Assembly (NCBI RefSeq): GCF_002294985.1
Contig: NZ_NSGE01000003.1
Coordinates: forward strand, 248,001 to 312,000
Direction of reading: 5' to 3'
DNA from: Mesorhizobium sp. WSM3862
GTDB lineage: Bacteria; Pseudomonadota; Alphaproteobacteria; Rhizobiales; Rhizobiaceae
Length of the DNA: 64,000 bases
Shown here: positions 26,269 through 47,660 of the stretch, piece by piece
Numbering within the stretch: the first letter of the stretch is position 1
Layout of the letters: each line of letters starts with the position of its first letter
Program-made: the position numbers and the translations under genes
The notes under the pieces: model-generated
The model's input: only the letters and a program-made list of their open reading frames with translations
The model's database searches: none
What the model was told of the DNA's origin: nothing

Positions 26269-27075
26269 TCATACCACGATCCCCAGCCACCTCCGGTTAA
26301 GGCCGAATCTCAGGAAAAGCTCTGCTTCTGGCTTGATGAGGAATTCTACCCATTTTCGCTTTGTATCGAAAACGTTTGCTCCATCGCTGCCATTCTTGAC
26401 GATGAATTTTGCAAACTTTCCCGACATATCAAAAATCAGAGACACTTCATCATTGGCGCGAACAAGAAATCCCTCTTGATTTAGCTTCGTGTCATACACG
26501 AACGGGCCGCCATAATACCGATTGCGTCGCGGATCGATCATCATGTTTCTACGAGGATCGATCGACATATTCCGGTTTGGATCGATCATCATGTTCCGGT
26601 TGGGGTCGATCATCATGTTCCGGTTTGGATCGATCATCATGTTTCGGTTTGGATCGATCATCATATTCCGATTGGGGTCGATCATCATGTTCCGGTTTGG
26701 ATCGACCAGCATGTTCCGGCGGGGATCGATCGACACGTTCTTATTGGGGTCGAGCATCATGTTTCGTCTTGGATCATTGGCGGTGGGAAAGCCGGTCGCT
26801 TGGCCTGCCTCGGATTCCTCGGACGAAAGGTCAAGCAGGAGAAGGTATTCCCCCTGCTGGTCGCTTTCCAGACTCGTGAAAACGGTGTACTCGCCCACCT
26901 CGAAGGTTATAAATCGCTCGCTTAGGGTGCGGACCCTGACGCCATCAGATCCAACAAGAATGTCCGATTTTTCCCTCGTCTCGATGAGCTCGATTACAGC
27001 TCCTAGTTCCCGAAGCCCGCTAGGGGAAACTTGGGTAAGTTTGGTGGTAAACTCGGGGGTTACGACAAACCTCAC
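26269..27075 (-). CDS. DPNRN octapeptide-repeat protein, unknown
   Basis: This 268-residue protein begins with GTG 27075, overlapping the upstream stop (GTGA). Residues 1-85 have a predicted beta-alpha-alpha-beta-beta-beta order (RFVVTPEF, two helices, VRVRTLS, RFITFEVGEYTVF, EYLLLLDLSS) that could be a RelE/ParE-like fold. Residues 101-188 are eleven octapeptides of form DP(N/R)RNMMI, five identical. Residues 189-268 are beta-rich (GFLVRANDEVSLIFDMSGKF). No signal peptide is present. It lies just beyond cI in the lysogenic-conversion slot, with lower GC than phage genes. Function is unknown; a scaffold, solenoid or toxin-linked role is speculative. Confidence 0.8.
   Translation of the reverse strand: MRFVVTPEFTTKLTQVSPSGLRELGAVIELIETREKSDILVGSDGVRVRTLSERFITFEVGEYTVFTSLESDQQGEYLLLLDLSSEESEAGQATGFPTANDPRRNMMLDPNKNVSIDPRRNMLVDPNRNMMIDPNRNMMIDPNRNMMIDPNRNMMIDPNRNMMIDPNRNMSIDPRRNMMIDPRRNRYYGGPFVYDTKLNQEGFLVRANDEVSLIFDMSGKFAKFIVKNGSDGANVFDTKRKWVEFLIKPEAELFLRFGLNRRWLGIVV
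26512..26775 (-). repeat. Tandem 24-bp repeats (eleven units) encoding octapeptides
   Basis: Eleven direct 24-bp units are arrayed without spacers, in phase with the reading frame of the minus-strand gene. Most contain a GATCGATC-like core, and two sub-variants (TTTGGATCG and TTGGGGTCG on the plus strand) alternate, suggesting unequal crossing-over or pairwise duplication. Confidence 0.95.
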
Positions 27076-28794: not shown

Positions 28795-29487
28795 ATGCCA
28801 GATACGAAGACAACCACGCCAGCGGTGAAAAAGTCCTGTTTTGTCGTGTGCCCCATTGGTCCGGAAGCAAGTCCGACCAGGCGGCACGCCGACTGGTTGC
28901 TGCATGAGATAATCGAGCATGTCCTTGACGCAAATTTCCATGATCAGTTCGAGCTTGTGCGCGCCGACAAGATCGACCAGCCCGGAATGATTGACGCGCA
29001 GATTATCAGTCATCTTTTGGACGATGATTTGGTAATCGCAGACATGACCGAGTTAAATCCAAACGTTTTCTATGAAATTGGCATAAGGCACATGAAGGAG
29101 TTGCCAATCGTTCACATGGTTAAGAAGGGAGACGCGATCCCATTCGATGTGAAGCTGTTTAGGGCAATCACTTATGACTATGCAGATCCGAACGATTTGA
29201 GGATAGCGCGAAGTGATCTACGTCGAACTTTGGAGACTGTGCTCAAGCCTGACTACAAACCAGATAATCCCGTTATCCGAGCCCGCGGCGTGGTGAAATT
29301 GGTCGAAAGCGCTGCGCCGGAAACTGCCATATTGCAGCAGCAGCTGAGCGAAATACTCAGAAGGCTTTCCGCCGTGGAGAATAGCCCGACGCTGTCGATG
29401 CTAAGATACGGCGACAGTTCCGGTGGAGTCGAATTTCCTAAGGCGGTACCCGCCCACCGGTACCGCGCTCGTTGTGGACCTCTCTAG
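28795..29487 (+). CDS. Nucleoside 2-deoxyribosyltransferase/TIR-like protein
   Basis: The open frame covers 230 residues from ATG 28795, with GGGG upstream. Residues 14-150 hold a Rossmann-like fold: CFVVCPIGPEAS, then DAQIISHLLDDDLVIADMTE and NPNVFYEIGIRHM, in which the Glu after NPNVFY corresponds to the catalytic Glu of deoxyribosyltransferases and related nucleotide hydrolases. After about residue 218 the sequence loses sense. A second frame (29423-29704) continues, suggesting a one-base insertion in CCCGCCC near 29450. Proteins of this type occur in defence islands as nucleotide-consuming effectors; that role here is inferred. Confidence 0.7.
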   Translation: MPDTKTTTPAVKKSCFVVCPIGPEASPTRRHADWLLHEIIEHVLDANFHDQFELVRADKIDQPGMIDAQIISHLLDDDLVIADMTELNPNVFYEIGIRHMKELPIVHMVKKGDAIPFDVKLFRAITYDYADPNDLRIARSDLRRTLETVLKPDYKPDNPVIRARGVVKLVESAAPETAILQQQLSEILRRLSAVENSPTLSMLRYGDSSGGVEFPKAVPAHRYRARCGPL

Positions 29488-31552: not shown

Positions 31553-32410
31553 TCAAATCCACGCGCTTCGTTCAGCGATCGGTGCACGTTTCTGAAACCC
31601 ACTTTGGCGAAAGTCGAGCAATTCCTGATACACCTCAAGGTGCCCGGCAAAATTGCGCGCCATAAACCGCACCAGCGTGGGGTTGTTCAGCAATCTGTCA
31701 ATATAACCGGTAACGCCGATCAGGTTGAGCACTGTTGCGCCATGGGTTCTGGCGGCGCTCAGATATTCATGGCTGACCTTGGCCAGGTCAGTTTGCATGT
31801 CAGCCAATTGCGTCGGGGAGATGCCCTCATATTGCTTTCTGGGCGCAAAGGGATCGGTGAGCCGCGATCGTGGTGTGAGCGCGATCAACACTCTCGCCAC
31901 CCGAAATTGCACCCGGTCCAACGCTAGCATGAGACGCACGATTTCAACCTGCCGGCTCGGCACGACCTCTCGCAACAAGGGGAAAATCTTCAAGGGGGCG
32001 CCGAAATCGTTCAGGAGGTCGAGAGCCTCGAGACAAACACCGCCGACAAGCTGCGGCTCGGCTGTGCACAACGAGGCTTGCTGATCCTCAGAACGGGAAT
32101 TCGGTCCGCCGCTTGGCGAACCTTGCGTCAAGATAGAAGGCAGCGTTGCGAGATCATGCGCCTGCAGCAAGGCGCGGAACGACGCGTTGGCCAGGATCTG
32201 ACCGGTGGCATTGACGACGACTTCCAGTTGATGCCGCGCTGCGACGGCTTCTCTGATGAAATCCTGCATCCGATCGAATTGGCGCTTGTAGGTCCGCAAG
32301 AATGCCGGGCCACGCAATGGATTCTGCGGCGCCTGCAAATTGCTCGTAAGACGGGTGGCATGCCGGTTGTTCTCGACGAAGCGACGAAGCTCGGCCTTGG
32401 TTACTGTCAC
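31553..32410 (-). CDS. RepB C-terminal-domain-like protein, partner of the serine recombinase
   Basis: The 285-residue product overlaps the recombinase stop by four bases (ATGA at 32407-32410). The central part (REVVPSRQVEIVRLMLALDRVQFRVARVLIALTPRSRL...PRKQYEGISPTQLADM) is the segment typical of RepB-C-like proteins of rhizobial plasmid partitioning. The N-terminal ParB DNA-binding part of true RepB is absent. Coupling suggests it assists the recombinase, perhaps as a directionality or DNA-bridging factor. Confidence 0.75.
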   Translation of the reverse strand: MTVTKAELRRFVENNRHATRLTSNLQAPQNPLRGPAFLRTYKRQFDRMQDFIREAVAARHQLEVVVNATGQILANASFRALLQAHDLATLPSILTQGSPSGGPNSRSEDQQASLCTAEPQLVGGVCLEALDLLNDFGAPLKIFPLLREVVPSRQVEIVRLMLALDRVQFRVARVLIALTPRSRLTDPFAPRKQYEGISPTQLADMQTDLAKVSHEYLSAARTHGATVLNLIGVTGYIDRLLNNPTLVRFMARNFAGHLEVYQELLDFRQSGFQKRAPIAERSAWI

Positions 32411-33969
32411 GGGATCGCCGAAATCGATTCTCGTCTCGCCATCTCCACGACAGGATCGAGCGAAGCGAAGAGGAAGGCATCAAGGCGCACGCCGTTGTTT
32501 GCGTTGAGCATGCGAAGGGCGGATTGCGCTTCATGCGCGGGCGCAATGAGGAAGTCACGAACAGTTTGATGATCAGGCTCCATTCTGATCAAAATCGTCA
32601 CATCTGGCCCAACGAGACCGCGGTTCCAAAATATCCAGCGTGGATAACCGGTGACGATAATCCGATAGCGCGCGATCCATATCGCGATGGAGAATTCCTC
32701 ATTGACGCGCAAAAGCTTTGTTTTGGGATCGTACAGTGCCGAACCACCGACCTTGTCAATGTTCGACATCAATTCCTCGACGACTTGTTGCCGGATCTGT
32801 TTGAGCCGGTTGCTGACATCGAGTTTCCGATAGTTCGCCGAGGCGTCGTATCCGATCAACTGGTAGGCGGCCTTCATGCTTCCAAATCGGTGCGCGTAAA
32901 TGGAGGCTGAATGACAGAAGGGGGCGGCGTCGATGATTGGGCTCGACAGCCTCCCCCGCTCTTTCAGCAGCTTGGTCAGATCGGCAAGCAGCTCCTCATC
33001 GGGCTTAAGGTAAGCGCGCGCGCGCCTGATAGCTTGCGCACGATCGAAAAGCGCCCGGGTCACGAGCGGCTCGATGACATTGTCGGCGCGAACAAATGCG
33101 CTTGGCGGATTTCTTACCCGGTCGTGTAGAAGCCTATGGGATATTCGATTCCAGACATTGTTACCGATATACTTCTCGCTCGTCAGTATCGTGCCCACGC
33201 ATGCTTTGGTCCATGGTCGGCCGCGTTCAGTAACCAGGCCGCGAGCGTTTAATGCAGTCGCAATTTCGGCTTCCGTTTTTCCCTTCACGAATTGATTGAA
33301 CATCCATCTTACGGTGGAGACCTCCTCTTTCGGCCCCGGCACTAGAATGACGCGATCGCTTGCCAGCCCTTTTCGCTCGTTGCGATGAAGCATTGCCTTG
33401 GGATTTCCGGAGCCGTCAACAAGAAGGCGCCTGAAGCCATAGCCGGCGGGGCCACCGCCGCTGAAACCCAGTTTGACGATGCGGCTTTGACCGGCGAAGA
33501 CCCTGTTCGACAGCATGCGGCTGTACTCCGCGGCCATGCTGCGTTTGATCGCCTTCAGAACGTCGGACCCGATGCTCCCATCGTTGACGAATAGCTCGGC
33601 GCAGAACTCGATCCGCACTCCGGCTATCTGGCACCGGTATTCATAGGTGGCGCTTTCATCGGTATTCTGGAAGCGCCCCCAACGGCTCACGTCGTAGACA
33701 ACGACGGTCTCGAAGTCGGCTCGCCGGCTTTCGACATCTTCCAACAGCTGCTGCAAGCCTGGGCGCCCCACGAGGCTGAGGCCACTTCGCCCGGGATCCT
33801 CATAGGTCGCGACAATGTCGTAACCCATGACCTTCGCATAATTGCGGATCGCATCTCTCTGGTTGTCGATCGAGTAGATCTGCCTGTCTGTGGACATGCG
33901 CAGATACTGGGCCGCACGGATCCTTGGCCTCCCTGGAGGAACGCTGCGGACCGCTGCAGACTTGTCCAT
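32407..33969 (-). CDS. Large serine recombinase
   Basis: This 520-residue protein is taken from ATG 33969 (MDKSAAVRSV). The resolvase domain has AQYLRMSTDRQIYSIDNQRDAI with catalytic Ser26, then DPGRSGLSLVGRPGLQQLL and VYDVSRWGRF. A recombinase domain follows (NPKAMLHRNERKGLASDRV, FVKGKTEAEIATALNARG, ILTSEKYIGNNVWNR). The C-terminal half is family-specific and lacks an obvious zinc ribbon. It is likely responsible for integration of a small element that entered the prophage. Confidence 0.9.
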   Translation of the reverse strand: MDKSAAVRSVPPGRPRIRAAQYLRMSTDRQIYSIDNQRDAIRNYAKVMGYDIVATYEDPGRSGLSLVGRPGLQQLLEDVESRRADFETVVVYDVSRWGRFQNTDESATYEYRCQIAGVRIEFCAELFVNDGSIGSDVLKAIKRSMAAEYSRMLSNRVFAGQSRIVKLGFSGGGPAGYGFRRLLVDGSGNPKAMLHRNERKGLASDRVILVPGPKEEVSTVRWMFNQFVKGKTEAEIATALNARGLVTERGRPWTKACVGTILTSEKYIGNNVWNRISHRLLHDRVRNPPSAFVRADNVIEPLVTRALFDRAQAIRRARAYLKPDEELLADLTKLLKERGRLSSPIIDAAPFCHSASIYAHRFGSMKAAYQLIGYDASANYRKLDVSNRLKQIRQQVVEELMSNIDKVGGSALYDPKTKLLRVNEEFSIAIWIARYRIIVTGYPRWIFWNRGLVGPDVTILIRMEPDHQTVRDFLIAPAHEAQSALRMLNANNGVRLDAFLFASLDPVVEMARRESISAIP

Positions 33970-34086
33970 CGCTTCGCGCCGTCGTACCGATTTCCTAGCC
34001 CAGTGACTTCGCCACATAAGGGCAGTGGGCCAGGGTGGAACCCTGGAAATAGACCCGCTGGCGTGGCTGACAAGGTAGAGAATGGC

Positions 34087-34392
34087 ATGCGCCGATACGT
34101 TGGGGTGATCCACAAGGACAATGACAGCGACTTCGGGCTATCTTTTCCCGATTTCCCGGGCGTCGTCACCGCCGGCAGGACAATTGCCGGAGTGCGTCGG
34201 CTCGCCGAGGAGGCGCTCGCCTTTCACATCGAGGGGCTCATAGAAGATGGCGTGTCGATTCCGGAGCCGACGCCGCTCGAACAGGTAGCAGCGAAAACCG
34301 ACGTACTCGCCACTTTCTCGGTGCCTCTGAAGCCTGCGACACGGTCAGCAGGTCGGCCGAGAAGAAGGTCGCATGTCTCTCGGCATCGCTGA
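34087..34392 (+). pseudogene. HicB-like antitoxin, truncated at its C-terminus
   Basis: The product has 101 residues, from ATG 34087. MRRYVGVIHKDNDSDFGLSFPDFPGVVTAG...EALAFHIEGLIEDGVSIPEPTPLE is the HicB RNase H-like domain. After KPATRS the sequence turns into GRPRRRSHVSRHR, so the C-terminal ribbon-helix-helix DNA-binding part is lost, probably by frameshift. No hicA toxin gene is found next to it. Confidence 0.75.
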
Positions 34393-35483: not shown

Positions 35484-37559
35484 TCAGCCGGCAGGGTCGG
35501 TCTCGGGTGGAGAAGTCTCCCTTTCAGGAAGGAGACTTACTCGAAAAGCGCAATGCAGACCTGACCGTTCGTAGTTCAAGGCAACGCCACCGGCGGTCTC
35601 ATACTCGAATAACCTTTGCAATAGCTCCGTGCCAAACCCGCGCTTGCCAAGCGAGGCGGGCGGGCCACCTCTCTCATGCCAATCCAGTTCAAGGATCCGG
35701 CTCATCTCACCTTCCACGACCTTCCATGAGATCGAGATCGATCCCGTCGAATTCGACAGTGCTCCATATTTGATGGCGTTGGTCGTGAGCTCATGAAGGG
35801 CCAGCGCGAGGGAGAGCGCTATATTCGCAGCCAGCCAAACCTCCTCGCCGCAGAGATCGAACCGGGCAAGCGGTGCGTGGGGCTCGATCGAGGCGGCAAT
35901 GAGGGTTTGGAGATCGGCGCCGCTCCAGTTCTCCCGAGTAAGGAGATCGTGTGCCTTGGCCAGTGAGATCAGCCGGCTGGAAAGTGCCGCTCCCGCCTGG
36001 GCAAGGCTGGAGGCGTTGCGGATGGTCTGCCCCGCTATCGCCTGAACCACAGCCAACGTGTTCTTGACCCGATGGTTCAGCTCCTTGACCAGCAGTTGAC
36101 GCTGCTCCTCGCCGCGCTTGCGTTCGGAGATATCAAGGCTGATCTGCACCGCGCCTACGACTGAGCCTTCCGCGCTGCGGATGGGCCGCGCGCTAGAAAG
36201 GAGGTAGCGTTGCTCCCCCGACGGCAGCTTGTAGGCGAATTCTTCGCTTTGGATTTCCTCGCCGCGCATCGCCCTGCTCAGCGGGCGATCCTCCCGGCTG
36301 ACCGGTTGGCCGTTCTTGTAGGCCAGCGTGTCGATCACGAGTTCAGGCCTGCCGAATGTTTTCCGAGACTCCGTCGGCAGCCCCATCAATTCGGCAGCAA
36401 ACCGATTGCGTATCACCTGGCGGGCCTCCGGGTCATAGGTGAACCAAACGGCCGCGGGCACCGTTTCCAGAACCGTTTCCAACTCGCGCGTGCGTTCCGC
36501 GATTGCATGGCCGGCTTTGATCATAGCCTGGGCAATCGTGTCGAACTCGGTGACAGACGTCGACATAGGTTCGACCTGGCTTCCAGAGCCGAGCGCATCG
36601 GCGCGCGCGGCAAGGTCGACCGTGGCCTTGGTGAACCTTGTGCCGACCACGTAGCCCAGAGCCAGCGAAACAAGCAGCGCCGTGAAACCTGTTGCGCCAA
36701 TCTGCGCGAGCGACCACCAGAGAGGCGCCTGAACATCCGAGAGCGGAACATTGGCGGTGTAGAACCAGTCGGAATAGGGTGACCGGTAGTACCCGGCCAG
36801 CAGCGTGGTGCCTTCGAAATTGCGAGACCGGAACGTACCGGAGCGGCCGACGACCTTTGCTAGATATTCCGGCAAACCGGGCCTGCCGGTCCACTGATCG
36901 TGCAACTTTGATCTCGCAACATAATTGCCCTCACGATCACCGACACCGACCGTCCATCCTTGCGGTACAGCTGGCAGCAGGACGAGGCGAATACGCTCAG
37001 TCGGGACCGACATCGAAAGCAGCAACGGCTGGCCTTTCGAGCCCGACACTTGTCTGGTGACTGCGATCCGGTATGCGTTCGATCCCGGCGCGGCGAACAC
37101 GTTGCTGACCAGCACGCCAGCAAGATCCAGGTGTTCGCGCTCATCGGGCGTCAGCGGTTCGGCCGAAGGCTCGGAGCCCTTCGCGGATTGGGTGCTCACC
37201 AACGCGCGCCCGCCCAAATCACGCAGCGTGATTACCTGATCCGTACCCTGGACGAGGCGGCTCGCCTCGGTGCCAAAAGCCTGCAGATCACCATCGGCGA
37301 GAGCAGGCGACTTGGAAAGCCCTTCCAGAAGGGTCTTAATGTTTGCGAGCTCGCCATCAACGACGAGCGATATCTGACGAGCAGTCCAAAGCGCCTCCTG
37401 CTCGATCCGGTGCCGCTCATGCAGGGCGTAGGCGACGAACAGGTAGGCAGCAAACAGCCAGACCGGCAACACGGCGGCCGCGATTAGTCCAAGCAGATGG
37501 GCTCGTGCCGATCGACGAGGCAAACTCGCGTCCCCTGTCTGTCCCAACGTTGCAACCAT
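35484..37559 (-). CDS. HWE-family sensor histidine kinase
   Basis: The 691-residue product is taken from ATG 37559 (MVATLGQTGD); TTG 37613 is the alternative. There are two transmembrane helices (about residues 22-42 and 282-305) around a dCache-like periplasmic sensor, a HAMP-like linker, a PAS domain, and an HWE kinase core with His496 in KELNHRVKNTLAVVQ, LHELTTNAIKYGAL and the family mark WHERGGP. No response regulator is adjacent, so it is an orphan. The ligand is unknown. Confidence 0.88.
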   Translation of the reverse strand: MVATLGQTGDASLPRRSARAHLLGLIAAAVLPVWLFAAYLFVAYALHERHRIEQEALWTARQISLVVDGELANIKTLLEGLSKSPALADGDLQAFGTEASRLVQGTDQVITLRDLGGRALVSTQSAKGSEPSAEPLTPDEREHLDLAGVLVSNVFAAPGSNAYRIAVTRQVSGSKGQPLLLSMSVPTERIRLVLLPAVPQGWTVGVGDREGNYVARSKLHDQWTGRPGLPEYLAKVVGRSGTFRSRNFEGTTLLAGYYRSPYSDWFYTANVPLSDVQAPLWWSLAQIGATGFTALLVSLALGYVVGTRFTKATVDLAARADALGSGSQVEPMSTSVTEFDTIAQAMIKAGHAIAERTRELETVLETVPAAVWFTYDPEARQVIRNRFAAELMGLPTESRKTFGRPELVIDTLAYKNGQPVSREDRPLSRAMRGEEIQSEEFAYKLPSGEQRYLLSSARPIRSAEGSVVGAVQISLDISERKRGEEQRQLLVKELNHRVKNTLAVVQAIAGQTIRNASSLAQAGAALSSRLISLAKAHDLLTRENWSGADLQTLIAASIEPHAPLARFDLCGEEVWLAANIALSLALALHELTTNAIKYGALSNSTGSISISWKVVEGEMSRILELDWHERGGPPASLGKRGFGTELLQRLFEYETAGGVALNYERSGLHCAFRVSLLPERETSPPETDPAG

Positions 37560-37734
37560 ACCCCCAAGCTGACGAACGACAAGTGTGAAGTAGCTCCCGC
37601 TCCGATATCGCAACTAGGCGCTGGCACCTCATCGTCAGCCCGCGATGCACGGAGACGCTGCGTTCGCTTGCGTCATTCTTTTGTACTCTTTGCGATGTAG
37701 CACCATTTTGCGGCGGGCTAAGGAGGAGGTCGAG

Positions 37735-38352: not shown

Positions 38353-38626
38353 CCTCGGTCCGGGGAAGCCGATTTTGGGCCGGTGCCGGTCAGGCAGCTT
38401 GAAATGCCGACGATAGAAGCGGGAATGGTGAACTGTGCGTCCCACTTTCCACAGTTGCACGACATCGAACGACCGTTTGACGTCGCCAAAGAGTCCTTCC
38501 GTCACAGCAGAAATGCCATCTCGAATCCTTGCCACGTCTAGGTTTGACCTTACGGAAGCCGAGAGCTACAGATAGATTTATATTAGTGGATCATATATTA
38601 GGGACAATGGACGCGAGGGACCGCTA
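38353..38626. other. Intergenic, promoter region of the SARP-like gene
   Basis: There are 274 bases with no gene. The AT-rich part around 38570-38605 (TTATATTAG, CATATATTAG) is a plausible promoter for the downstream regulator. No operator is identified. Confidence 0.4.
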
Positions 38627-40318
38627 GTGTACTCGGATGGCCGTCCTTTCCTTAGATTGATTGGGCCATTCGCGATTGAGCGCGCGGATGGCGCGGACGT
38701 TACGCCGCATGGCAGACGGTCCAAAGCGCTCTTGGCCATGCTTGCCCTGGCACCCAACGGTACGCGGAGCCGAAAATGGCTGCAAAGCAAGCTCTGGAGC
38801 ACTCGCGGCGAGGAGCAGGGTGCAGCAAGCTTGCGTCAGGAACTGTCCGAGGTTCGGAAGTCGCTCCGCAACGCCGGCCTTGATCTAATCTCGACCGATC
38901 GTGATGTGGTTCGACTCGACGTCGCTTCGATCGGCATCGATTTGAAGGATCCGCCCGAAGGCTCTGCCACGCGTGATCTGCTTGAGGGCCTCGATATTCG
39001 CGACCCAGAGTTCGAGGATTGGCTTCGTGAGCAAAGAAGCCAATGGCCCCGACCTCGCACAGTGCCAGCAAACACCTGTCCTGTTGGCGCGGCAGATCCA
39101 TTGTCCGGACAGCAAATCGCCTCACCTCTGAATTCGTCGCGGCTATGCTTGGGCCTAGTTCGCGATGCCAGGTGGACGGAGGGCTCCGCTAACAGGGCCG
39201 TCGGTGACCTTGTCCTGGATCTTGTGGTTCGATCGATCCTGAATTTCGAAGTGGTCGACGTCGTGGATTTTCAAGCGCAGGGACCGCTGACCCAAGCGCC
39301 TGGCACTGCGTTACCGGACTGGCTGTTGCAAACCAGGGCAACGGTGGTGGGCAACAGAGTGGGCCTGACATTTGGATTGATTGCGCCCGGTGACAGCCGG
39401 CTCTTGTGGTCGCATACGGATTTTCTCGAGCTTGCCGAGCTGACTGGCCCGGCGAGCCAGAAGCTGATGTCGCTGGTCAATCAGATCGTGTTTTCGATCC
39501 TCGAATTCGTTCTCAATCCTAAGTCCATTCGCGACGAGCCCCGACACCGGGCGTCTCGGCTTGCATTGACAGCGCTGCGACAGGTGTTCCGCATGCGCGA
39601 TACGGACCTGGATTCGGCGGAGCGCATGCTCGCCGAAGCATATGAGCTCGACCCGCGTAGCACATATCTGGGGTGGCAGCTGTTTGTGTTTGTCACCCGC
39701 TTCGGCGAAAGACGGGTCGGCCGTTCGGGCACCTTTCACGATCAGGTTCGGGATTGCGCCAGTCGCGCCGTCGAAGCGGCCCCCTTCAATCCTATCACGC
39801 TGGCGTTGGCCGCTCATGCCCATTCGTTCGTCTTTCGTGAATACGCACAGGCACTGGAACTCGCCGATCGAGCGATAGCCGCTAACCCGCTGCAAGCCAT
39901 TTGCTGGGACATGCGGGCCCTGACGCTCGGCTATCTCGGCGAGGTGAAGCGTGGATATGAGGATGCGATGCGCGCACGTGCACTGGGCGGGCCTCCTCTT
40001 TATCGTTACTGCATCGATACCACGTGCTGCATCTTGGCAACTCTGAACGGGCGCTTCGAGGAGGGGATACGTCACGGCGAGCGTGTCCTTGCGCAGCAAC
40101 CTACATACCTACCCGCTTTGAGATACTCGGCTGCCTGCCACGGGCATCTGGGGCAGACTCTGGAAGCAGTTAGAACTGTCGAACGCCTGCGCGCCTCGGA
40201 GCCGGATTTCTCGCTCGAGCTGCTTTCGGACGAGAATTATCCAATTGCAGGCGTACTCGGAGTTTCGGTTATCCAGAGCGGGCTGTCGCGGATAACGCTG
40301 CCAAGGTACGCGCCCTAG
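38627..40318 (+). CDS. SARP-type winged-helix regulator with TPR-like C-terminus
   Basis: This 563-residue protein starts with GTG 38627 (GAGGGA six bases upstream). Residues 8-100 form an OmpR-like winged helix of the SARP/CadC-like kind (RLIGPFAIERADG...RRSKALLAMLALAPNGTRSRKWLQSKLW...SLRQELSEVRKSLRNAG). A long alpha-helical second half from about residue 320 consists of TPR-like repeats (AYELDPRSTYLGWQLF, ADRAIAANPLQAICWDMRALTLGYLG). There is no transmembrane helix. It probably controls the adjacent PAP2-subtilase genes. Confidence 0.85.
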   Translation: MYSDGRPFLRLIGPFAIERADGADVTPHGRRSKALLAMLALAPNGTRSRKWLQSKLWSTRGEEQGAASLRQELSEVRKSLRNAGLDLISTDRDVVRLDVASIGIDLKDPPEGSATRDLLEGLDIRDPEFEDWLREQRSQWPRPRTVPANTCPVGAADPLSGQQIASPLNSSRLCLGLVRDARWTEGSANRAVGDLVLDLVVRSILNFEVVDVVDFQAQGPLTQAPGTALPDWLLQTRATVVGNRVGLTFGLIAPGDSRLLWSHTDFLELAELTGPASQKLMSLVNQIVFSILEFVLNPKSIRDEPRHRASRLALTALRQVFRMRDTDLDSAERMLAEAYELDPRSTYLGWQLFVFVTRFGERRVGRSGTFHDQVRDCASRAVEAAPFNPITLALAAHAHSFVFREYAQALELADRAIAANPLQAICWDMRALTLGYLGEVKRGYEDAMRARALGGPPLYRYCIDTTCCILATLNGRFEEGIRHGERVLAQQPTYLPALRYSAACHGHLGQTLEAVRTVERLRASEPDFSLELLSDENYPIAGVLGVSVIQSGLSRITLPRYAP

Positions 40319-40399
40319 GGTTGCGCACCGCACTTACGTCGAGGCCCCGACCACCAAGTCGCGCGGATCGAATTTGCAAGCTTTAGTTGAGGGGTGGAC

Positions 40400-41422
40400 A
40401 TGATGGCGATAATTGATCTTAACAACAAGTTGTTTAACGCTCGCTTCCTGGTCAGAGGATCGGACATACGACAATATCCGTTGATATTGGGTGACGCAAA
40501 ACCTGAAAAAGCTCTTGAGGAATACATCAAAAATAGAGGCGGCGAAAAACTGCATCCTTTCGTGGCCATGATGGCCAAGAGCAGCGTTCTGTCGATTCAA
40601 GATGAGCAGATCGTGATAACGATTTCCGATGACCCTGTGGAGGGTGTCATGCGCCTTTCGCCAGCCTTCCGGGCGGGGCCGAGCGCAGGTCGAGGTCGAG
40701 GCAGGGGCAGAGGGCGCGGACGAGGACGGGGACGCGGCAGAGGGCAGACGGCTTTCGAAACTGGCGAGGAGGCTTTGCCGGCGTGGCACGACAAGCGTGC
40801 CCTGCACACGATCGGACTAAGCGTCGCCAACAAATATCTCGGCGCGATCTGGGAGGACATTCTTATCGATCCCCCGCCCGGACCTTCAGAGAGCCTCAGA
40901 GAGACAGAAGCGCTTCTCGATCTGCAGAACAGGAGGGAAGGTGACCCGGTGCGGCGCGAGGAGATCGTCCGCCAGGCATCGTTCGGGATTTTGGACTACA
41001 CGGCACCGCTCGGAATAGACACTCTCGCGGGCTTCGAGGGGACATGCGCATTGATTGTTGCGATCCTCGAACTCACAGAGGAGATCGGGCTCAACTACAA
41101 AGATCGATTCAATCGGCCGCGGCCCAACATCATTGAGCAGAGGCTGCGGCCGGCGCTTCCGGTTCCTTCGCACGCTTCCTACCCGTCCAACCATTCATTT
41201 CAGTCATTTGCGGTGGCGAACGTTCTGCAACGCATGTTGCCCGAGCACGCAGGCGTAACCGCGCTTTATGCGCGCGCCCGCCGGGTGGCCGAGAACAGGG
41301 AATGGGCAGGGCTGCACTACGCCAGCGACACCGATGCCGGCGAGGAACTGGCTGCGCGCATTTCTCCGTACTTGGTGGACGCGATGGATGAAACGATCCG
41401 ACGTGCTCAGAGCGAATGGTAG
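40400..41422 (+). CDS. PAP2/vanadium haloperoxidase-like enzyme with Gly-Arg tract
   Basis: The product has 340 residues. ATG 40400 has GAGGGG upstream. Residues 97-115 are nine consecutive Gly-Arg pairs. The C-terminal domain carries the acid phosphatase/haloperoxidase signature: KDRFNRPRP, then SHASYPSNHSFQSFA (PSxH-like) and RRVAENREWAGLHYASD (R-x5-H-x3-D). No signal peptide or membrane helix is present, so it is a soluble cytoplasmic enzyme. Phosphatase versus haloperoxidase activity cannot be decided from sequence alone. Confidence 0.85.
   Translation: MMAIIDLNNKLFNARFLVRGSDIRQYPLILGDAKPEKALEEYIKNRGGEKLHPFVAMMAKSSVLSIQDEQIVITISDDPVEGVMRLSPAFRAGPSAGRGRGRGRGRGRGRGRGRGQTAFETGEEALPAWHDKRALHTIGLSVANKYLGAIWEDILIDPPPGPSESLRETEALLDLQNRREGDPVRREEIVRQASFGILDYTAPLGIDTLAGFEGTCALIVAILELTEEIGLNYKDRFNRPRPNIIEQRLRPALPVPSHASYPSNHSFQSFAVANVLQRMLPEHAGVTALYARARRVAENREWAGLHYASDTDAGEELAARISPYLVDAMDETIRRAQSEW
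40688..40744 (+). repeat. Gly-Arg dipeptide tract with mixed codons
   Basis: Nine GR dipeptides are encoded by varied codons (GGT/GGC/GGG/GGA with CGA/AGG/AGA/CGC/CGG), so the repeat is conserved at protein rather than DNA level. RGG/GR tracts usually bind RNA or polyphosphate. Confidence 0.8.
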
Positions 41423-41431
41423 GAGGGTGCC

Positions 41432-42979
41432 ATGACGGACGACATCAAGAAGGGCGAAGGCCATCTTTGTTATGACTGGTATCACTACCTCTGGCACCTG
41501 ATCGCAATCGGCGCCTTACGCGATCGTGCGCGCATCCCTGAAACGCGGTTGCCGCACGAGGCCGCATACCTGCTGGAGGCCGACGCCTGGGATTTGTTGG
41601 CTACTGACAAGCCCGGTTACGGCGAGGTCATTGCCCAGATTGATACGGGGGTGAACTCAAGCCATCCCAATCTCGACCCTCGTATCCGTCCTGCGGTCAG
41701 CTTCGCCGCTCACCCATTCGGGTTGAGTTACGTCACACCCAAGCAGCAACCGGCCGTCTTGCGAGGGCCGGAAAAACAGCAGAGCAAGAGCTTTGTGGGC
41801 GACGATACCTGGGCATGGGCGGCAGGCCTGATCAAATCGAGAAACAATGCGCAGGAAGTCGAGGTTCAGAAATCGCTGCTTCGAGCACTGAAAGATGGGC
41901 GCGGCGTAATTCAGGAGACTGCTGAGACCTCGCGTATGCGCTACTCAGCGCACGGGACCGCCTGCGCCGGGCTGATGGTCGGCGCCCCTGAGGCCTCGCC
42001 TGCGAAGTTGAGGCAATTTGGCAACGGTGAAGGCGCGATACCTTATTGGGGCGCCGCCCCGGGCGCTGAACTCCTGCCGATCGAGATTTCCGCACGGCCC
42101 GACGCAGCGCAGCTCATTCTGGCGTTCCTCTATGCCCGCGACCAGAAGGTTTCAGTCATACACTTTCCCCGGGAAGTACCCGATCCATGGCGAGCGCACC
42201 GTTCCTATCCTGGATATGGCGACAGCAGATATACTTCGGTCGAACAGGCAAAGCCAATTTGGGATTATTTCGAGAAGCTTTTTGAGGCGATCAGCGAGGA
42301 AATCCCCATCATCTGCGCAGCCGGCAACGATGGCTGCGACCATCTGATTTACCCGGCGAGCAAGGCCGGCGAAAGCAACGGCGTGATTGCGGTAGCGGCC
42401 GTCACTTATCGGGCGAGACGTTCAGCATATTCCAACTACAGCGGCGATCCGACCGACAATTCCGTCACCATTTCCGCGCCATCCGACGACCAGGAGGTGT
42501 GCACGCGCTGCCAAATACGACTGGACAGGGAGTCGCCGCGTTCACGTGACCACAATTTCGATATCTATGGGAAGCTCCCCCAGGTTGAATACGCGCCGCA
42601 GGGTGTGCTCACCACCGACATCCCGGGCTACCACGGCTATTCCGGCGGACAGTTGGAAGGGATCCAGCCACCGAGCGTCGAAAGCAGAGACCGCGCCGGG
42701 CTGTACACGGTGTTTGGCGGAACATCTGCCGCCTCGGCCATCGTCGCGGGAGCAGCCGCTTTGTTGCAGTCGAAACATCGGTCCACCGGTAGGCCGCTCA
42801 ACGGCATAGAAGTTAAGGCGAAGATGATCCAGTCGGGCGCAAAGGAGGTTTCATGGCCTTGGCTTGAAAAAGCTAACGTTCCGATTTTACCAGACAGCCC
42901 TAATTGCGAGAGAAGGGTGCCTTCGTTCGATCAGCAGTTTGGAGCGGGGCTGCTTGACCTCCGTAAGTTGTTGAGCTGA
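41432..42979 (+). CDS. Cytoplasmic S8 subtilisin-like peptidase
   Basis: The product has 515 residues. ATG 41432 has AGGAGG at six bases, nine bases after the PAP2-like stop, so the two are cotranscribed. The catalytic triad is Asp71 (IAQIDTGVNSSHPN), His174 (YSAHGTACAGLM) and Ser432 (FGGTSAASAIVAG), with oxyanion Asn299 (CAAGND). No signal peptide or propeptide is seen. A Cys pair, CTRC (357-360), sits in a surface insertion. It resembles subtilases that act in regulated proteolysis rather than secretion. Confidence 0.9.
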   Translation: MTDDIKKGEGHLCYDWYHYLWHLIAIGALRDRARIPETRLPHEAAYLLEADAWDLLATDKPGYGEVIAQIDTGVNSSHPNLDPRIRPAVSFAAHPFGLSYVTPKQQPAVLRGPEKQQSKSFVGDDTWAWAAGLIKSRNNAQEVEVQKSLLRALKDGRGVIQETAETSRMRYSAHGTACAGLMVGAPEASPAKLRQFGNGEGAIPYWGAAPGAELLPIEISARPDAAQLILAFLYARDQKVSVIHFPREVPDPWRAHRSYPGYGDSRYTSVEQAKPIWDYFEKLFEAISEEIPIICAAGNDGCDHLIYPASKAGESNGVIAVAAVTYRARRSAYSNYSGDPTDNSVTISAPSDDQEVCTRCQIRLDRESPRSRDHNFDIYGKLPQVEYAPQGVLTTDIPGYHGYSGGQLEGIQPPSVESRDRAGLYTVFGGTSAASAIVAGAAALLQSKHRSTGRPLNGIEVKAKMIQSGAKEVSWPWLEKANVPILPDSPNCERRVPSFDQQFGAGLLDLRKLLS

Positions 42980-43144
42980 GGGTCCCGCCGAATTTGACTG
43001 AAAAGGTCGGCTGCAAGCCGCTAAATCCGGGCTGAATGGATTTCTGACGTAATTCTGACGTGCCCCCCACGGCAGGCTTACGATCCGCCTACGCCGTCCA
43101 GTCATATTCGAGCGACGTTTGAAATCGCTCGGGGCCGGACTCCA

Positions 43145-43846
43145 ATGCATCCGATCACTGCCTATACGAATTCACAGACTGACCGCGTGCTCCCGTCATT
43201 CGGCATCGGTGAAACGAAATTCCAGCGCGCCATCGCCACCATCATGTTTACCGACGTGGAGGACTCGACCGGCTTGGCGAACGCGCTTGGCCTGGTCGAA
43301 ACCACGCGGTTCATGATCGAGCACTTCGCGTTGACCCGCCAGGTCGTGGTGGCCCATGAGGGGACCGTTCAAAACTTTACCGGCGACGGCGTGCTAGCGC
43401 TCTGGCCGGGGAGCGAAATGACGCCTAGCGAAACGGCACTAAAGGCGCTGGCCGCCGTCGCGGAACTGGTACCGCAAATCTCGCTCGGCAACGCTTGGAA
43501 GCGTTCTACGGGCTCCCTGTCGCGTCGCATCAGGATCGGCTTACACTCCGGCGAGGTGATGTTCGTCAACGATCGCCAGTGGGATTTCTCTTTTGTGGTC
43601 GGTTCGGAGGTAAATTTCGCCCGCCGCGTCGAGCAGGCTGGCAAGAGGGAGAATGGTGCAGGGGTCGACGCGCTGGTGATGGTCAGCGGTGCGACCCTCC
43701 ACCTTGCTGGCCTGGCGACTGCGTCCATCGACCCCTACGAGCTTGTGCGGCTAACCCCCGCCGAACTGGCTCATCGCCAATCGGTCGACTGGCGTCGACC
43801 GTGTTCGCGGAGCAGAACTATAGCGCGTGCAAATGTCGGCCTTTGA
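43145..43846 (+). CDS. Class III adenylate/guanylate cyclase
   Basis: This 233-residue protein is essentially a single catalytic domain. Metal-binding Asp37 lies in MFTDVED and Asp81 in FTGDGVLALW. Transition-state residues Asn157 and Arg161 lie in VGSEVNFARRVEQ. All key catalytic residues are present, so activity is expected. It follows the subtilase gene by 165 bases. The regulator of the cassette might sense its product, but no cAMP-binding domain is visible nearby. Confidence 0.88.
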   Translation: MHPITAYTNSQTDRVLPSFGIGETKFQRAIATIMFTDVEDSTGLANALGLVETTRFMIEHFALTRQVVVAHEGTVQNFTGDGVLALWPGSEMTPSETALKALAAVAELVPQISLGNAWKRSTGSLSRRIRIGLHSGEVMFVNDRQWDFSFVVGSEVNFARRVEQAGKRENGAGVDALVMVSGATLHLAGLATASIDPYELVRLTPAELAHRQSVDWRRPCSRSRTIARANVGL

Positions 43847-44010
43847 GGCGTTAGCTGACGCTGAACCCCACTTCAGCCAAATGGCGGCTCCTGGCGCACC
43901 TGCGACCCCCAGCGCAGTCGCCGGCAATGTCCGCTTTAAGGCAGTGGCACCGCTAACTTTAATGACCGAGATGCGGCGCAAAGCGGCCGGGGCTGAGGGT
44001 GGCTCAACGT

Positions 44011-44929: not shown

Positions 44930-45445
44930 TTGCTCGATAAAGTTCAACGTTCATCGCAAACCCGCCGAGAGTTTCCGGAAGCTGGGTTCGACACCCATCC
45001 GCGCTGCCTGGAAATGGCAGAGGCTATGCGAGATCTGTTTGCTGTTGGCGGCGGCGTTCGGCTTGAAGACCTGGTCGGCGCCGGCTTCACAAGCGCCGAG
45101 ATCATCGAGTTTCAGGACAGCGCCGCACGTCTGGCTTTGCTCGCCAGCACCAAGCAGATCACCATCCGTCCGGATCTGCTTGCAGATATGATTGAGAAGG
45201 CCCGGCACGCAGCGCCCAATCGGCCACCGCTGCCCGGCGGCGCGCAGCCTACACAGAGTCTCATCCTGGCCTGGGGCCAGTATTGTGCGGCCCGCGGCGC
45301 GCTGCTGCTCGATCCCTGGTCGGGTCAACGCGAACGCTGCATTTCGGTGCTGTCGGGCTATCTCGACCGGCTGCCGATCTTCCCGGCCATTCGCTCGAGC
45401 GTTCTCACCGCCGTCGAAGCAGCCATGCCGCAGGTGCACCAATGA
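44930..45445 (+). CDS. Phage protein, unknown
   Basis: The 171-residue product starts at TTG 44930, justified by AAGGAG seven bases before it. An alpha-helical region (LEDLVGAGFTSAEIIEFQDSAARLAL) is followed by a second helical block (ILAWGQYCAARGALLL). It is the first gene of the excisionase-integrase block and overlaps the next gene by four bases (ATGA). No homolog family is recognised. Confidence 0.7.
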   Translation: MLDKVQRSSQTRREFPEAGFDTHPRCLEMAEAMRDLFAVGGGVRLEDLVGAGFTSAEIIEFQDSAARLALLASTKQITIRPDLLADMIEKARHAAPNRPPLPGGAQPTQSLILAWGQYCAARGALLLDPWSGQRERCISVLSGYLDRLPIFPAIRSSVLTAVEAAMPQVHQ

Positions 45446-46131
45446 GGTCCGCCAGCCACGCGCCGAGCGATAGACCCGCCATGATCCCAACCTTCAAGCC
45501 GGACGGGTCGGCCTTCGACCTCCTCGAGCCGAAGGCGTCCGACATCAGCTTCGCCGATATGGCCAACACGCTGTCCAAGCTGGCGCGGTTCAATGGTCTC
45601 TATCGCTGCCCGGCCTACTCTGTGGCGCAGCATTGCGTGATGGGTGCCGACGCGCTGTTCCGCGAAGCCGGCGACGGCGTGGCCGCCGGCTATTTCCTTC
45701 TTCATGACGGACATGAATACGCGCTCGGCGACATCACCAGGCCGGCAGTCGACCTGATCCAGCATCACATTGCACAGTTGGCCACAGCTGCCGGGCTAAA
45801 TTGTGCAGGATTCGTCGACCAGCTCGCCCACCGCGCGATCGCGTCGGTCAAGCGCAGCATCGACCTTGCGATCTACCAGGCGGCTGAATTGCCCAACATC
45901 GACACAGTGCCGGCCTATGCCCGTCAGATCCGCGATATGGATAATCGCATGCTGGTTGCCGAGGCCGCCGCCCTGTTCGGAGCCAGGCCGACCAGCGCTT
46001 GTCTGCCGCGCGTTTCGCTGCCTCCGCCAAAGCTTGTCGGCGCGATCGAGCCGTGGGGCGCGATGAAAGCAGAGCTTGCCTTCATCGACCGCCTGCAGCG
46101 CTATCTCGGCATCGCGGCGCGGACGTGCTGA
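45442..46131 (+). CDS. HD-domain phosphohydrolase (YfbR-like)
   Basis: The product has 229 residues. ATG 45442 lies in the ATGA overlap. AYSVAQHCVMGADAL, LLHDGHEYALGDITRPA and the downstream ADE-like MDNRMLVAEAAALFG are the HD-superfamily metal ligands and core of phage 5'-nucleotidases. It may tune nucleotide pools or dephosphorylate dNMPs during infection, as known for HD enzymes of related phages. The C-terminal part is less conserved. Confidence 0.85.
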   Translation: MRSASHAPSDRPAMIPTFKPDGSAFDLLEPKASDISFADMANTLSKLARFNGLYRCPAYSVAQHCVMGADALFREAGDGVAAGYFLLHDGHEYALGDITRPAVDLIQHHIAQLATAAGLNCAGFVDQLAHRAIASVKRSIDLAIYQAAELPNIDTVPAYARQIRDMDNRMLVAEAAALFGARPTSACLPRVSLPPPKLVGAIEPWGAMKAELAFIDRLQRYLGIAARTC

Positions 46132-46173: not shown

Positions 46174-46590
46174 ATGAACGGGTCCGATGAGTACACGGAA
46201 AACGCGCCGCTGCGGCTGGACATCGCGGCCCGGATTGCTTTCCCTGATGGCTCGATGGGCCCAGCCGGTTTGCGCAAGGAGCGCGACCGCGGGCGGCTAG
46301 AGACGGAAATCATCGCCGGCAAGGAATACACCACACTCGCAGCAATCGGGAGAATGAGGAAGCTATGCCGCGTCCAAGCAAGGGAATCCGACTCGTCTGG
46401 CGATCCGAGAGCCGAAAGGCCGACGGCAGCCTGCGCAGCAAGGCCGGCTGGTACATCGAGGACGCCGGACGACGACATCCCACTGGCTGCGGCAAGAGCG
46501 AGCTTGTTGAAGCTCAAAGGCAGCTCGCCGACTACATCAGCGAAAAACATCAGCCGACGCGCCAGCGCAACCGCGACCCCGACCAAGTAA
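46174..46590 (+). CDS. Excisionase-like protein, overlapping the integrase gene
   Basis: The product has 138 residues, from ATG 46174. PLRLDIAARIAFPDGSMGPAGLRKERDRGRLETEIIAGKEYTTLAAIGRM is the typical rhizobial excisionase HTH pattern (MerR-like). The C-terminal 70 residues are Ser/Ala/Arg-rich and are encoded in another frame inside the integrase gene (overlap 226 bases). The same long overlap, with similar low-complexity tails, is known from related excisionase-integrase pairs, so it appears to be conserved. Confidence 0.8.
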   Translation: MNGSDEYTENAPLRLDIAARIAFPDGSMGPAGLRKERDRGRLETEIIAGKEYTTLAAIGRMRKLCRVQARESDSSGDPRAERPTAACAARPAGTSRTPDDDIPLAAARASLLKLKGSSPTTSAKNISRRASATATPTK

Positions 46591-47660
46591 AGATCGCCGA
46601 CGTCGTCAACGTCTATGCGGAAGACGTCGTCGCGCTCAATCCGTCGCAGAGCTATCGCAAGGAAACGGCCGCGCGCCTGCTCGCCATTTTAACCTTCTTC
46701 ACCGGTACGGTCGCCGACATCTCAGGCGCACTCTGCCGGGAATATGTCAGCGGCCCGGCCAAGAACGGCCGGATCCTGCCGACGCCAGCGATGGGACGCC
46801 GGCAGCTGGAGGATCTGCGCGCGGCGATCAACCACTATCACGCCGAAAAATACATCACGGCCGTGCCGAAGATCGTGTTGCCGGCGCGATCCGAGAAGGC
46901 CAAGCGCGCGCTGACGCGATCTGAGGCGGCGAGGCTGCTCTGGGCAGCCTGGCAGATGCGGCAGACCTGGAAGGGACAAGAGAGCGATCGCCGGACCGGC
47001 CGGCACGTGGCGCGCTTCATCCTGACCGGGCTCTACACCGGCACGCGATCCGCCGCCATCTGCGGGGCCGCGACACGGCCCACAGTGGGGCGCGGCTTCG
47101 TCGACCTTGAGCGCGGCGTCTTCTTCAGGCGAGCCGCCGACATGGTCGAGACCAGGAAGCGACAGCCGCCGGTCAGGCTGCCGGACCGGCTGCTGGCGCA
47201 CATGCGCCGCTGGGCGCGTACCCCGGTTGACATCAAGACCAAGGGACGCGGAAAAAGCCGCACGATCGGCCGCATGATCGCACACGATTTCATCGTTGAA
47301 TGGGAAGGCGGCCCGGTTCGCTCCGTTCGCAAGGCGTTCAAGTCGGCCTGCGAGATCGCCGGCCTCGGCTGGTATGAGACGCGGATCCTCAAAGGCGTCG
47401 AGAGCAAAGTCTTCGTCACAGATGTCACCCCTCACACGCTGCGTCACACTGCTGCGACGTGGCTGATGCAGAACGGCGTCGAGCTCTCGAAGGCCGCCGA
47501 CTTCTGCGGCATGACGGAAGCCGTGCTGCGCAAGCACTATTACCACCATCACCCCGATTTCCAGGCCGACGCCGCCGCGGCGATCACCGCCAAGGCGCCG
47601 GCGCCGCGCCAGAAGAGCAACATCGTCCGATCGGGCGTCTCCCACCTGAAACCCACCTGA
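46365..47660 (+). CDS. int: Tyrosine recombinase/integrase
   Basis: This 431-residue protein starts at ATG 46365 (MPRPSKGIRLVWR). An arm-binding-like N-terminus is followed by a core-binding domain (residues 75-165) and a catalytic domain with Arg228 (GLYTGTRSA), His357 and Arg360 (TPHTLRHTAATW) and Tyr392 (KHYYHHHP). It reads toward the tRNA-Pro fragment, as expected for a tRNA-targeting prophage integrase next to attR. Confidence 0.96.
   Translation: MPRPSKGIRLVWRSESRKADGSLRSKAGWYIEDAGRRHPTGCGKSELVEAQRQLADYISEKHQPTRQRNRDPDQVKIADVVNVYAEDVVALNPSQSYRKETAARLLAILTFFTGTVADISGALCREYVSGPAKNGRILPTPAMGRRQLEDLRAAINHYHAEKYITAVPKIVLPARSEKAKRALTRSEAARLLWAAWQMRQTWKGQESDRRTGRHVARFILTGLYTGTRSAAICGAATRPTVGRGFVDLERGVFFRRAADMVETRKRQPPVRLPDRLLAHMRRWARTPVDIKTKGRGKSRTIGRMIAHDFIVEWEGGPVRSVRKAFKSACEIAGLGWYETRILKGVESKVFVTDVTPHTLRHTAATWLMQNGVELSKAADFCGMTEAVLRKHYYHHHPDFQADAAAAITAKAPAPRQKSNIVRSGVSHLKPT

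Follow-up and report, generated by a model that had tools for sequence, protein, structure and literature searches.

A repeat-tagged PAP2 enzyme encoded between a predicted SARP-TPR regulator and a subtilase, with a class III cyclase as neighbouring cargo, in a Mesorhizobium prophage

The four genes and their predicted products

The window, i.e., the whole 64,000-nucleotide stretch of Mesorhizobium sp. WSM3862 that was analysed (contig NZ_NSGE01000003.1, positions 248,001 to 312,000), contains genes for a putative SARP-TPR regulator, a PAP2-family enzyme with a Gly-Arg repeat, an S8 subtilase and a class III cyclase. An initial annotation, made from the sequence alone, had described four plus-strand genes in series, and all four open reading frames (ORFs) were found in place. 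The genes and the block they form are the following:

38627-40318, plus strand: SARP-TPR regulator ORF, 563 aa (Pfam TPR_19, 2e-7)
40394-41422, plus strand: PAP2 ORF, 342 aa (Pfam PAP2, 2e-7)
41432-42979, plus strand: S8 subtilase ORF, 515 aa (Pfam Peptidase_S8, 9e-24)
43145-43846, plus strand: stand-alone class III cyclase ORF, 233 aa (Pfam Guanylate_cyc, 9e-8)
38462..43984, plus strand: four-gene shared block, from DNA alignment to Mesorhizobium amorphae

The intergenic gaps are 75 bp between regulator and PAP2, 9 bp between PAP2 and S8, which agrees with the tight coupling first proposed for these two genes, and 165 bp between S8 and the cyclase. The nearest relative found, M. amorphae CCNWGS0123 (locus L035), carries the same four genes, and its DNA is 94.9% identical to the window exactly over 38462-43984; the flanks differ, and no other part aligns at that level. 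The four genes are one 5.5-kb block common to the window and M. amorphae. No transposon ends were recognised when the edges of the block were compared by eye between the window and L035 only, and a scan of the order gave no match to this PAP2 in eight other genomes of M. amorphae's genus.

The PAP2 protein presents the motifs K236-x6-R243-P244, S265-N-H267 and R302-x5-H308-x3-D312, and these KX6RP, SXH and RX5HX3D motifs are kept in 80 of 81 PAP2 proteins (80 named loci, defined in the next section, and the window), the exception being locus L065. The nearest solved fold is the class A acid phosphatase 7f17, with a profile E-value of 1e-24 and a target TM-score of 0.76. Vanadium haloperoxidases rank behind acid phosphatases by sequence and by fold, so that the haloperoxidase-type enzyme initially suggested is the less likely reading. 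By inspection, the N terminus has no signal peptide and periplasmic secretion is not indicated. Our best guess, from sequence and model, is a cytosolic acid-phosphatase-like enzyme. It has the fold and the three catalytic motifs in common with class A acid phosphatases (7f17, PhoN, PhoC), yet differs from them in lacking a signal peptide, in being repeat-tagged and in being encoded alongside a regulator and a protease.

The subtilase was described at first as having a complete triad and no export signal, and both points stand: all 80 aligned proteins (those of 79 loci and that of the window) have the triad D71/H174/S432 and the oxyanion residue N299, and the N terminus preceding the S8 subtilisin domain does not look like a signal peptide on inspection. 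NCBIfam matches to mycosin and to PatA/PatG fall below the cut-offs. The S8 domain and its triad are shared with mycosins and the cyanobactin proteases PatA/PatG, but the protein differs from these in its sub-threshold family scores, in its lack of a signal peptide and in being the partner of a tagged PAP2.

The regulator divides into three predicted regions:

aa ~1-140: SARP-like winged helix
aa ~174-295: CadC/TolB-like alpha-beta domain
aa ~304-554: TPR superhelix

Pfam Trans_reg_C gives a weak match, below cut-off (0.008). The AlphaFold model has a mean pLDDT of 86.8, with short strands and helices at residues 8-97, and Foldseek returns TPR superhelices and the CadC periplasmic domain, the target TM-scores of the top-ranking hits being mostly below 0.5. 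A soluble one-component SARP-type protein with a CadC-like/TPR sensor half is our best guess. Its predicted layout is comparable to that of AfsR, which has an N-terminal OmpR-like DNA-binding half and a C-terminal TPR sensor (PMC10936776). In contrast with AfsR and PimR-type SARPs, however, the regulator has no detected BTAD domain and no match to a NOD/ATPase, its middle domain is CadC/TolB-like, and it lies beside a PAP2 and a protease gene, mostly in Alphaproteobacteria.

As for the cyclase, both metal-binding aspartates (Asp37, Asp81) are kept. Asn77 aligns to a lysine of CyaC that we take to be base-contacting, and in locus L036 the position holds a cysteine. Given this substitution, the "catalytically intact" cyclase of the initial annotation is only partly borne out: its metal site is complete and the presumed base-contacting lysine is missing.

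A conserved core, putative operators and variable cargo

A scan of named genomes was carried out with the PAP2 alignment, and the best 80 of 454 relatives were kept (the 80 nearest named loci). A regulator lies within 5 kb of PAP2 in 77 of these 80 loci and an S8 protease in 79, values that are partly circular given that profiles A1, A2 and A3 include the window and some loci later scored (L028-L033 among them). Gaps in the core occur at contig ends: in L069 and L108 the contig begins with PAP2, and in L039 it stops after this gene. The only named locus truly without a part of the core is L065, in which the regulator is undetected, the KX6RP motif is broken and the repeat tag is degenerate. 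These losses occur together, as in a decaying copy, which fits a mutual dependence of the parts. The genes are therefore not found scattered; regulator, PAP2 and S8 stand together in nearly all loci examined.

When an S8 profile was applied to 397 genomes of the order, five genes were found at E 1e-40, each adjoining a PAP2 gene; since these five had been rows of the profile, the result adds only that S8 proteases of this family were not found away from PAP2. Plasmid records gave 89 PAP2 and 71 S8 matches. The order regulator, PAP2, S8 is present in the Phyllobacterium, Rhizobium and Aliiroseovarius plasmid records examined. The laboratory strain Rhizobium johnstonii 3841 carries the module on plasmid pRL12 as genes RL_RS36050, RL_RS36045 and RL_RS36040, with a PAP2 tag of NK type. 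At E 1e-30, regulators of this general type were detected in 52 of 150 genomes, in many cases several per genome, a density not high enough for their proximity to PAP2 in nearly every locus to be due to chance. Conversely, in 28 of 30 best-per-genome loci of other regulators of the type, no tagged neighbour exists within the approximately 1.5 kb covered on each side, and the remaining two are tagged PAP2 loci. The predicted SARP-TPR regulator, the cytosolic PAP2 and the cytosolic subtilase are, as judged from sequence, a conserved and widespread core.

The component families themselves are already known. The module is apparently undescribed: neither the gene set nor the tag was found described in open-licence PubMed Central text, in keeping with the earlier remark that no system with this set was known, and given that subscription papers and most preprints lie outside this coverage, the novelty is provisional. 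A fixed core with variable parts, and the presence of cyclases, peptidases and TPRs, are a theme shared with vWA-MoxR-VMAP and related conflict systems (PMC7159879). However, vWA and MoxR genes are absent among the Pfam matches of the limited neighbour set scanned, and PAP2 and SARP have zero occurrences in that paper's main text.

Direct repeats spaced 11 or 22 bp are the known SARP operator, according to PMC10936776 and PMC5930380, and the 11-bp direct-repeat operators that these describe for AfsR and PimR-type SARP-LAL regulators resemble the sites found here. The window contains two candidates:

43042..43061, plus strand: direct repeat with an 11-bp period, TTCTGACGT-aa-TTCTGACGT, a candidate SARP operator for the cyclase, from the window sequence and relatives
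38467..38482, plus strand: weak, degenerate 11-bp repeat upstream of the regulator (GAACG-N6-TGACG), altered in L035

The first presents exact 9-bp halves with an 11-bp period, 84-103 bp before the cyclase, and is also present in L035. When exact 7-mer repeats upstream of the regulator are sorted by spacing, 11 bp stands out with 26 of 72 loci, all other spacings from 8 to 30 bp being found in at most 7. Of 72 loci, 51 have the pattern TNACG-N6-TNACG at the regulator gene against 0.4 expected, a count that is partly circular because the pattern was drawn from regulator-upstream sites and from the window's cyclase site. More independent is the count for the 300 bp that follow S8, where 27 of 79 loci have the pattern against 0.3 expected. 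It precedes PAP2 in 1 of 78 loci and S8 in 0 of 79, and the same core at other periods is found in 0-7 loci. The control consisted of 2-mer block shuffles and the search region ran from -350 to +50 of mechanical ORF starts; three of the 51 regulator sites begin at or inside the ORF start, and L104, whose regulator is on the other strand, was left out. As near-identical Rhizobium loci inflate these counts, sites were also counted by groups (genus, else family or single locus, the window being placed under Mesorhizobium), which yielded 26 of 37 at the regulator and 11 of 40 after S8. The suggestion that the module is controlled by signalling draws support both from the co-occurrence of its three core genes and from SARP-type repeats that precede the regulator in most loci and the cyclase here.

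The gene after the second repeat site varies by lineage. In the window and L035 it is the cyclase. All 12 named loci that carry a HEXXH-type gene with ThiF have it in this place, some loci of Phyllobacterium and Aliiroseovarius have short ORFs (85-91 aa), and Halocynthiibacter has a second subtilase. A cyclase immediately after S8 is found in the window and, among the 80 named loci, in no others than L035 and L036. Given this variation, the cyclase is best read as lineage-specific regulated cargo that does not belong to the core. The fixed four-gene set originally proposed thus holds for its three-gene core and fails for the membership of the cyclase.

In Rhizobium, the cargo of locus L006 (9439-12611) comprises a HEXXH-type protein (annotation), a ThiF adenylyltransferase, a 73-aa protein ending in Gly-Gly and a DUF982 protein, and L114 carries the same genes downstream of a repeat site. 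In Palleronia sp. THAF1 (L027:9847-13604), the genes downstream of S8 encode a protein of the animal haem peroxidase family and a C1 peptidase (annotation), i.e., another enzyme-protease pair.

These Rhizobium loci, where a putative peptide-modification protein of HEXXH type (annotation), ThiF and the 73-aa protein follow S8 and are preceded by the repeat site in 12 of 12 named cases, speak for a possible involvement in peptide or secondary-metabolite maturation, with S8 as a PatA/mycosin-like maturation protease, in line with its sub-threshold NCBIfam matches, and PAP2 as a tailoring enzyme. The extra genes, however, occur in no more than 12 of the 80 named loci, apart from three loci of Neorhizobium or of unnamed origin; no family-wide precursor was seen, and the PAP2 fold is nearest to acid phosphatases, so that we consider this explanation very unlikely. 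On the same distribution, the more specific reading of the HEXXH and ThiF genes as marks of a ribosomally synthesised and post-translationally modified peptide system was rejected.

The repeat tag of the PAP2 proteins

The feature that distinguishes this PAP2 family is an exact short repeat, seen by the initial annotation as a Gly-Arg tract in a single protein and present family-wide:

40688..40741, plus strand: repeat tag of nine exact Gly-Arg units (aa 99-116), of low model confidence and predicted to be disordered

An exact dipeptide repeat of at least four units is present in 80 of the 81 PAP2 proteins, L065 being the exception: 37 carry (NK)n, 34 (NR)n, 3 (GR)n, 2 (SR)n, 2 (AQ)n, 1 (TK)n and 1 (AH)n. 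Among 1,973 other mechanical ORFs of at least 150 aa, only 15 contain a dipeptide repeated at least four times, of which 14 overlap the PAP2 gene on the opposite strand (by coordinates) and one is unrelated. The contrast between these frequencies indicates the repeat is not due to chance. The array, from first to last doubled unit, is uninterrupted in 77 of 81 proteins and interrupted in four, L065 having been scored on its residual units. In the AlphaFold model, the N terminus and the tag mostly have pLDDT below 50, and confidence is high for the catalytic domain (residue ~131 onwards) except for a drop at 141-150.

Slippage was considered as the origin of the tract and rejected. In near-family tags, 122 of 663 adjacent DNA units (hexamers) are identical, where codon shuffling predicts 136; in distant tags, the observed number is 14 of 244 and the predicted one 14.7. 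The distant set also contains L205 and L206, which belong to the near family and the window, and L207 and L210, which duplicate L012 and L018, and for L215 an incorrect repeat of three units was scored. An excess of identical units would be expected from recent slippage, and since none is seen, the repeat is kept at the protein level. Fast switching of tags within the near family was likewise rejected: with L065 labelled NK, tag type changes six times on the PAP2 tree for seven types, the minimum possible, and thus follows the tree. Elsewhere in the window, a minus-strand gene (26269-27075) encodes a protein with 11 octapeptide copies around (I/V/L)DPNRNM-, with mixed codons; it is not a PAP2 and has no PADLOC match.

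More distant PAP2 relatives carry units of two to five residues: MT, SL, AGN, TGN, TSN, ADG, DAR, GGA, GGF, GGH, GGI, AGV, TGV, SGV, SGA, AGR, GNQ, NAE, NAD, NSF, QTQ, TAM, SGGA and GGNWF. With the seven near-family dipeptides, this amounts to 31 units, circular permutations being merged. Among 34 distant loci, which were selected because their PAP2 is tagged, a regulator lies within 5 kb in all 34, of which 17 have a SARP-like N terminus, 15 have a class III cyclase in that place and two are unassigned, the labels resting on small profiles built from the same loci. A protease was found in 32 of the 34, being S8-like in 27 and of the unrelated glutamic family A4 in five; it was not detected in L032, nor in L201, whose contig stops directly behind PAP2. 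Of eight large S8-like proteins that were tested, three lack a Pfam match and were assigned by tblastn to the others. The A4 proteases accompany [A/T/S]-[G/S]-N tags in five of five loci.

Untagged relatives serve as controls. One set of 29 PAP2 loci contains 22 tagged and seven untagged members, and among untagged PAP2s, which were judged for the regulator only, none is present within approximately 1.5 kb in 13 of 13 cases; most have a signal-peptide-like start, the N termini of L019, L021 and L227 being ambiguous.

Exactness of this kind could arise if the tag were a self-assembly element, its repeats stacking in a cross-beta or polyglycine-II-like manner so that the phosphatase forms filaments or condensates. 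Paralogues would then be separated by their distinct units, and the protease would take the assemblies apart. An exact periodicity with arbitrary units would suit such an element, as would a position that may be N-terminal, internal or C-terminal, and the three genomes with two tagged copies carry different tags in each case (NAE/GGF, GNQ/TAM, NAD/TSN). Yet the near family offers no templating partner, since none of 80 S8 ORFs and none of 78 regulator ORFs contains the tag in three tandem units; tracts as strongly charged as (NR)n or (GR)n should stack poorly unless bound to a polyanion; and the AlphaFold model gives the tag no order. Self-assembly hence appears unlikely to us.

Alternatively, the tag may be a multi-copy peptide precursor, from which the protease would cut identical peptides that act as ligands of the regulator's TPR domain, in the manner of alpha-factor precursors and RRNPP signalling. 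Exact copies, clade-stable units and mixed codons would all be accounted for, and a protease and a TPR regulator do accompany the tag. A precursor should nevertheless tolerate one bad copy, whereas so few of the arrays are interrupted; a conserved exporter or importer was not noticed, although no search was aimed at one; and the two tagged loci with no detected protease (L032, and L201 at its contig end) also fit poorly. The probability of this explanation is accordingly quite low.

Prophage setting and proposed mechanism

PHROGs matches in the window to terminase, portal, capsid, head protease, baseplate, repressor and integrase identify a prophage, in agreement with the prophage-cargo setting first suggested. 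The four genes lie inside its cargo stretch, from the repressor (25549) to the integrase that bounds the region:

46365..47660, plus strand: prophage tyrosine integrase (Pfam and PHROG match)

This position is one reason to consider an anti-phage or abortive-infection module, in which the regulator or the cyclase would sense infection and the released phosphatase or protease would halt growth. The distribution is sporadic, with a block common to genomes whose flanks differ; the proximity of this block to gajA in M. amorphae is suggestive only; and the cyclase resembles the Pycsar PycC models (PADLOC, 9e-14), a class III cyclase of this kind being the point in common with Pycsar. Generic class III cyclases would, however, be expected to match those models too. 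Unlike in Pycsar, PycTM or PycTIR was not found among the few neighbours scanned, the TIR-like protein being approximately 14 kb away, and the cyclase is one of several cargo genes. The SARP, PAP2 and S8 proteins have no PADLOC match at E 0.1. Among viral-contig PAP2 relatives (best 80 of 491), none has the tag, the regulator or S8; the window PAP2 alone retrieved no relative from viral contigs, phage records contain no match to it, and no S8 relative in viral contigs was confirmed. The core is thus not typical phage cargo, defence argued from the prophage position is weak, and we assign the anti-phage explanation a low probability.

Several neighbouring genes are recorded here as observations in their own right. 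The gajA-like gene of M. amorphae (Gabija; PADLOC E 1.6e-233) occupies L035:15190-17026, approximately 3.6 kb from the shared block. In the window, the cargo region includes the TIR-like protein (28795-29487, plus strand; PADLOC effector model, E 2e-10) and a second recombinase (32407-34113, minus strand; PHROG integrase, E 2e-62, also matching a DNA invertase family), the latter suggesting nested elements. An HWE histidine kinase with PAS and weak Cache matches (35484-37613, minus strand) lies near the four genes, outside the block common with M. amorphae, and a match to a phage deoxyribonucleoside 5'-monophosphate phosphatase (45283-46131, plus strand) stands beside the integrase.

The reading we prefer, though tentatively and at somewhat less than even probability, is that a SARP switches on an acid-phosphatase-like enzyme and that the periodic tag of this enzyme serves the protease and/or the TPR sensor as a handle. 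The unit would consist of three mobile core genes and one cargo gene. The regulator would bind the 11-bp direct repeats and switch on its own operon of regulator, phosphatase and protease, and from the second operator it would switch on a lineage-specific gene, here the class III cyclase. The PAP2 enzyme would stay in the cytosol, where a phosphatase could do harm if its activity were not regulated, and its disordered, exactly periodic tag would be its control handle, which the partner protease may read by cleavage or degradation in any register and/or which may dock in the regulator's TPR groove. Reading of the tag would tie PAP2 level or activity to the sensor. A signal for that sensor, a substrate for the phosphatase and any benefit to the cell are presumed in this scheme.

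Several results weigh against it. An exact repeat site at the regulator gene is absent in the window, L035 and L036, and the L036 cyclase has no upstream site. Distant SARP-type loci present an 11-bp repeat upstream in 2 of 17 cases, against approximately 1.3 for other periods, and distant loci with cyclase-type regulators in 0 of 15. Across the whole window, the core pattern has two matches against 1.47 expected and is hence not rare, so that the site before the cyclase rests on its position, its exact 9-bp halves and its relatives. Pfam BTAD, a part of classical SARPs, was not found in the regulator at E 0.1. The S8 alignment shows no acidic residues at the positions we take to be the subtilisin S1 pocket, where basic tags would suggest them. 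Finally, since tag type follows the PAP2 tree, a coupling between tag and protease is inseparable from common ancestry.

A bolder version, which we regard as improbable, is an unrecognised proteobacterial module with an enzyme-borne identity code of exact short repeats, from which the protease would make peptide ligands or which the TPR sensor would read directly. If true, each copy in a genome would have its own insulated channel.

Low-complexity tracts such as this tag are easily taken for products of slippage. Here the repeats are exact in the protein, with mixed codons and lineage-specific units, and are accompanied by a regulator and a protease, which points to a function that needs periodicity itself. 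The repeat sites, in turn, suggest a SARP-type operator rule in Alphaproteobacteria, one that finds further genes of the regulon.

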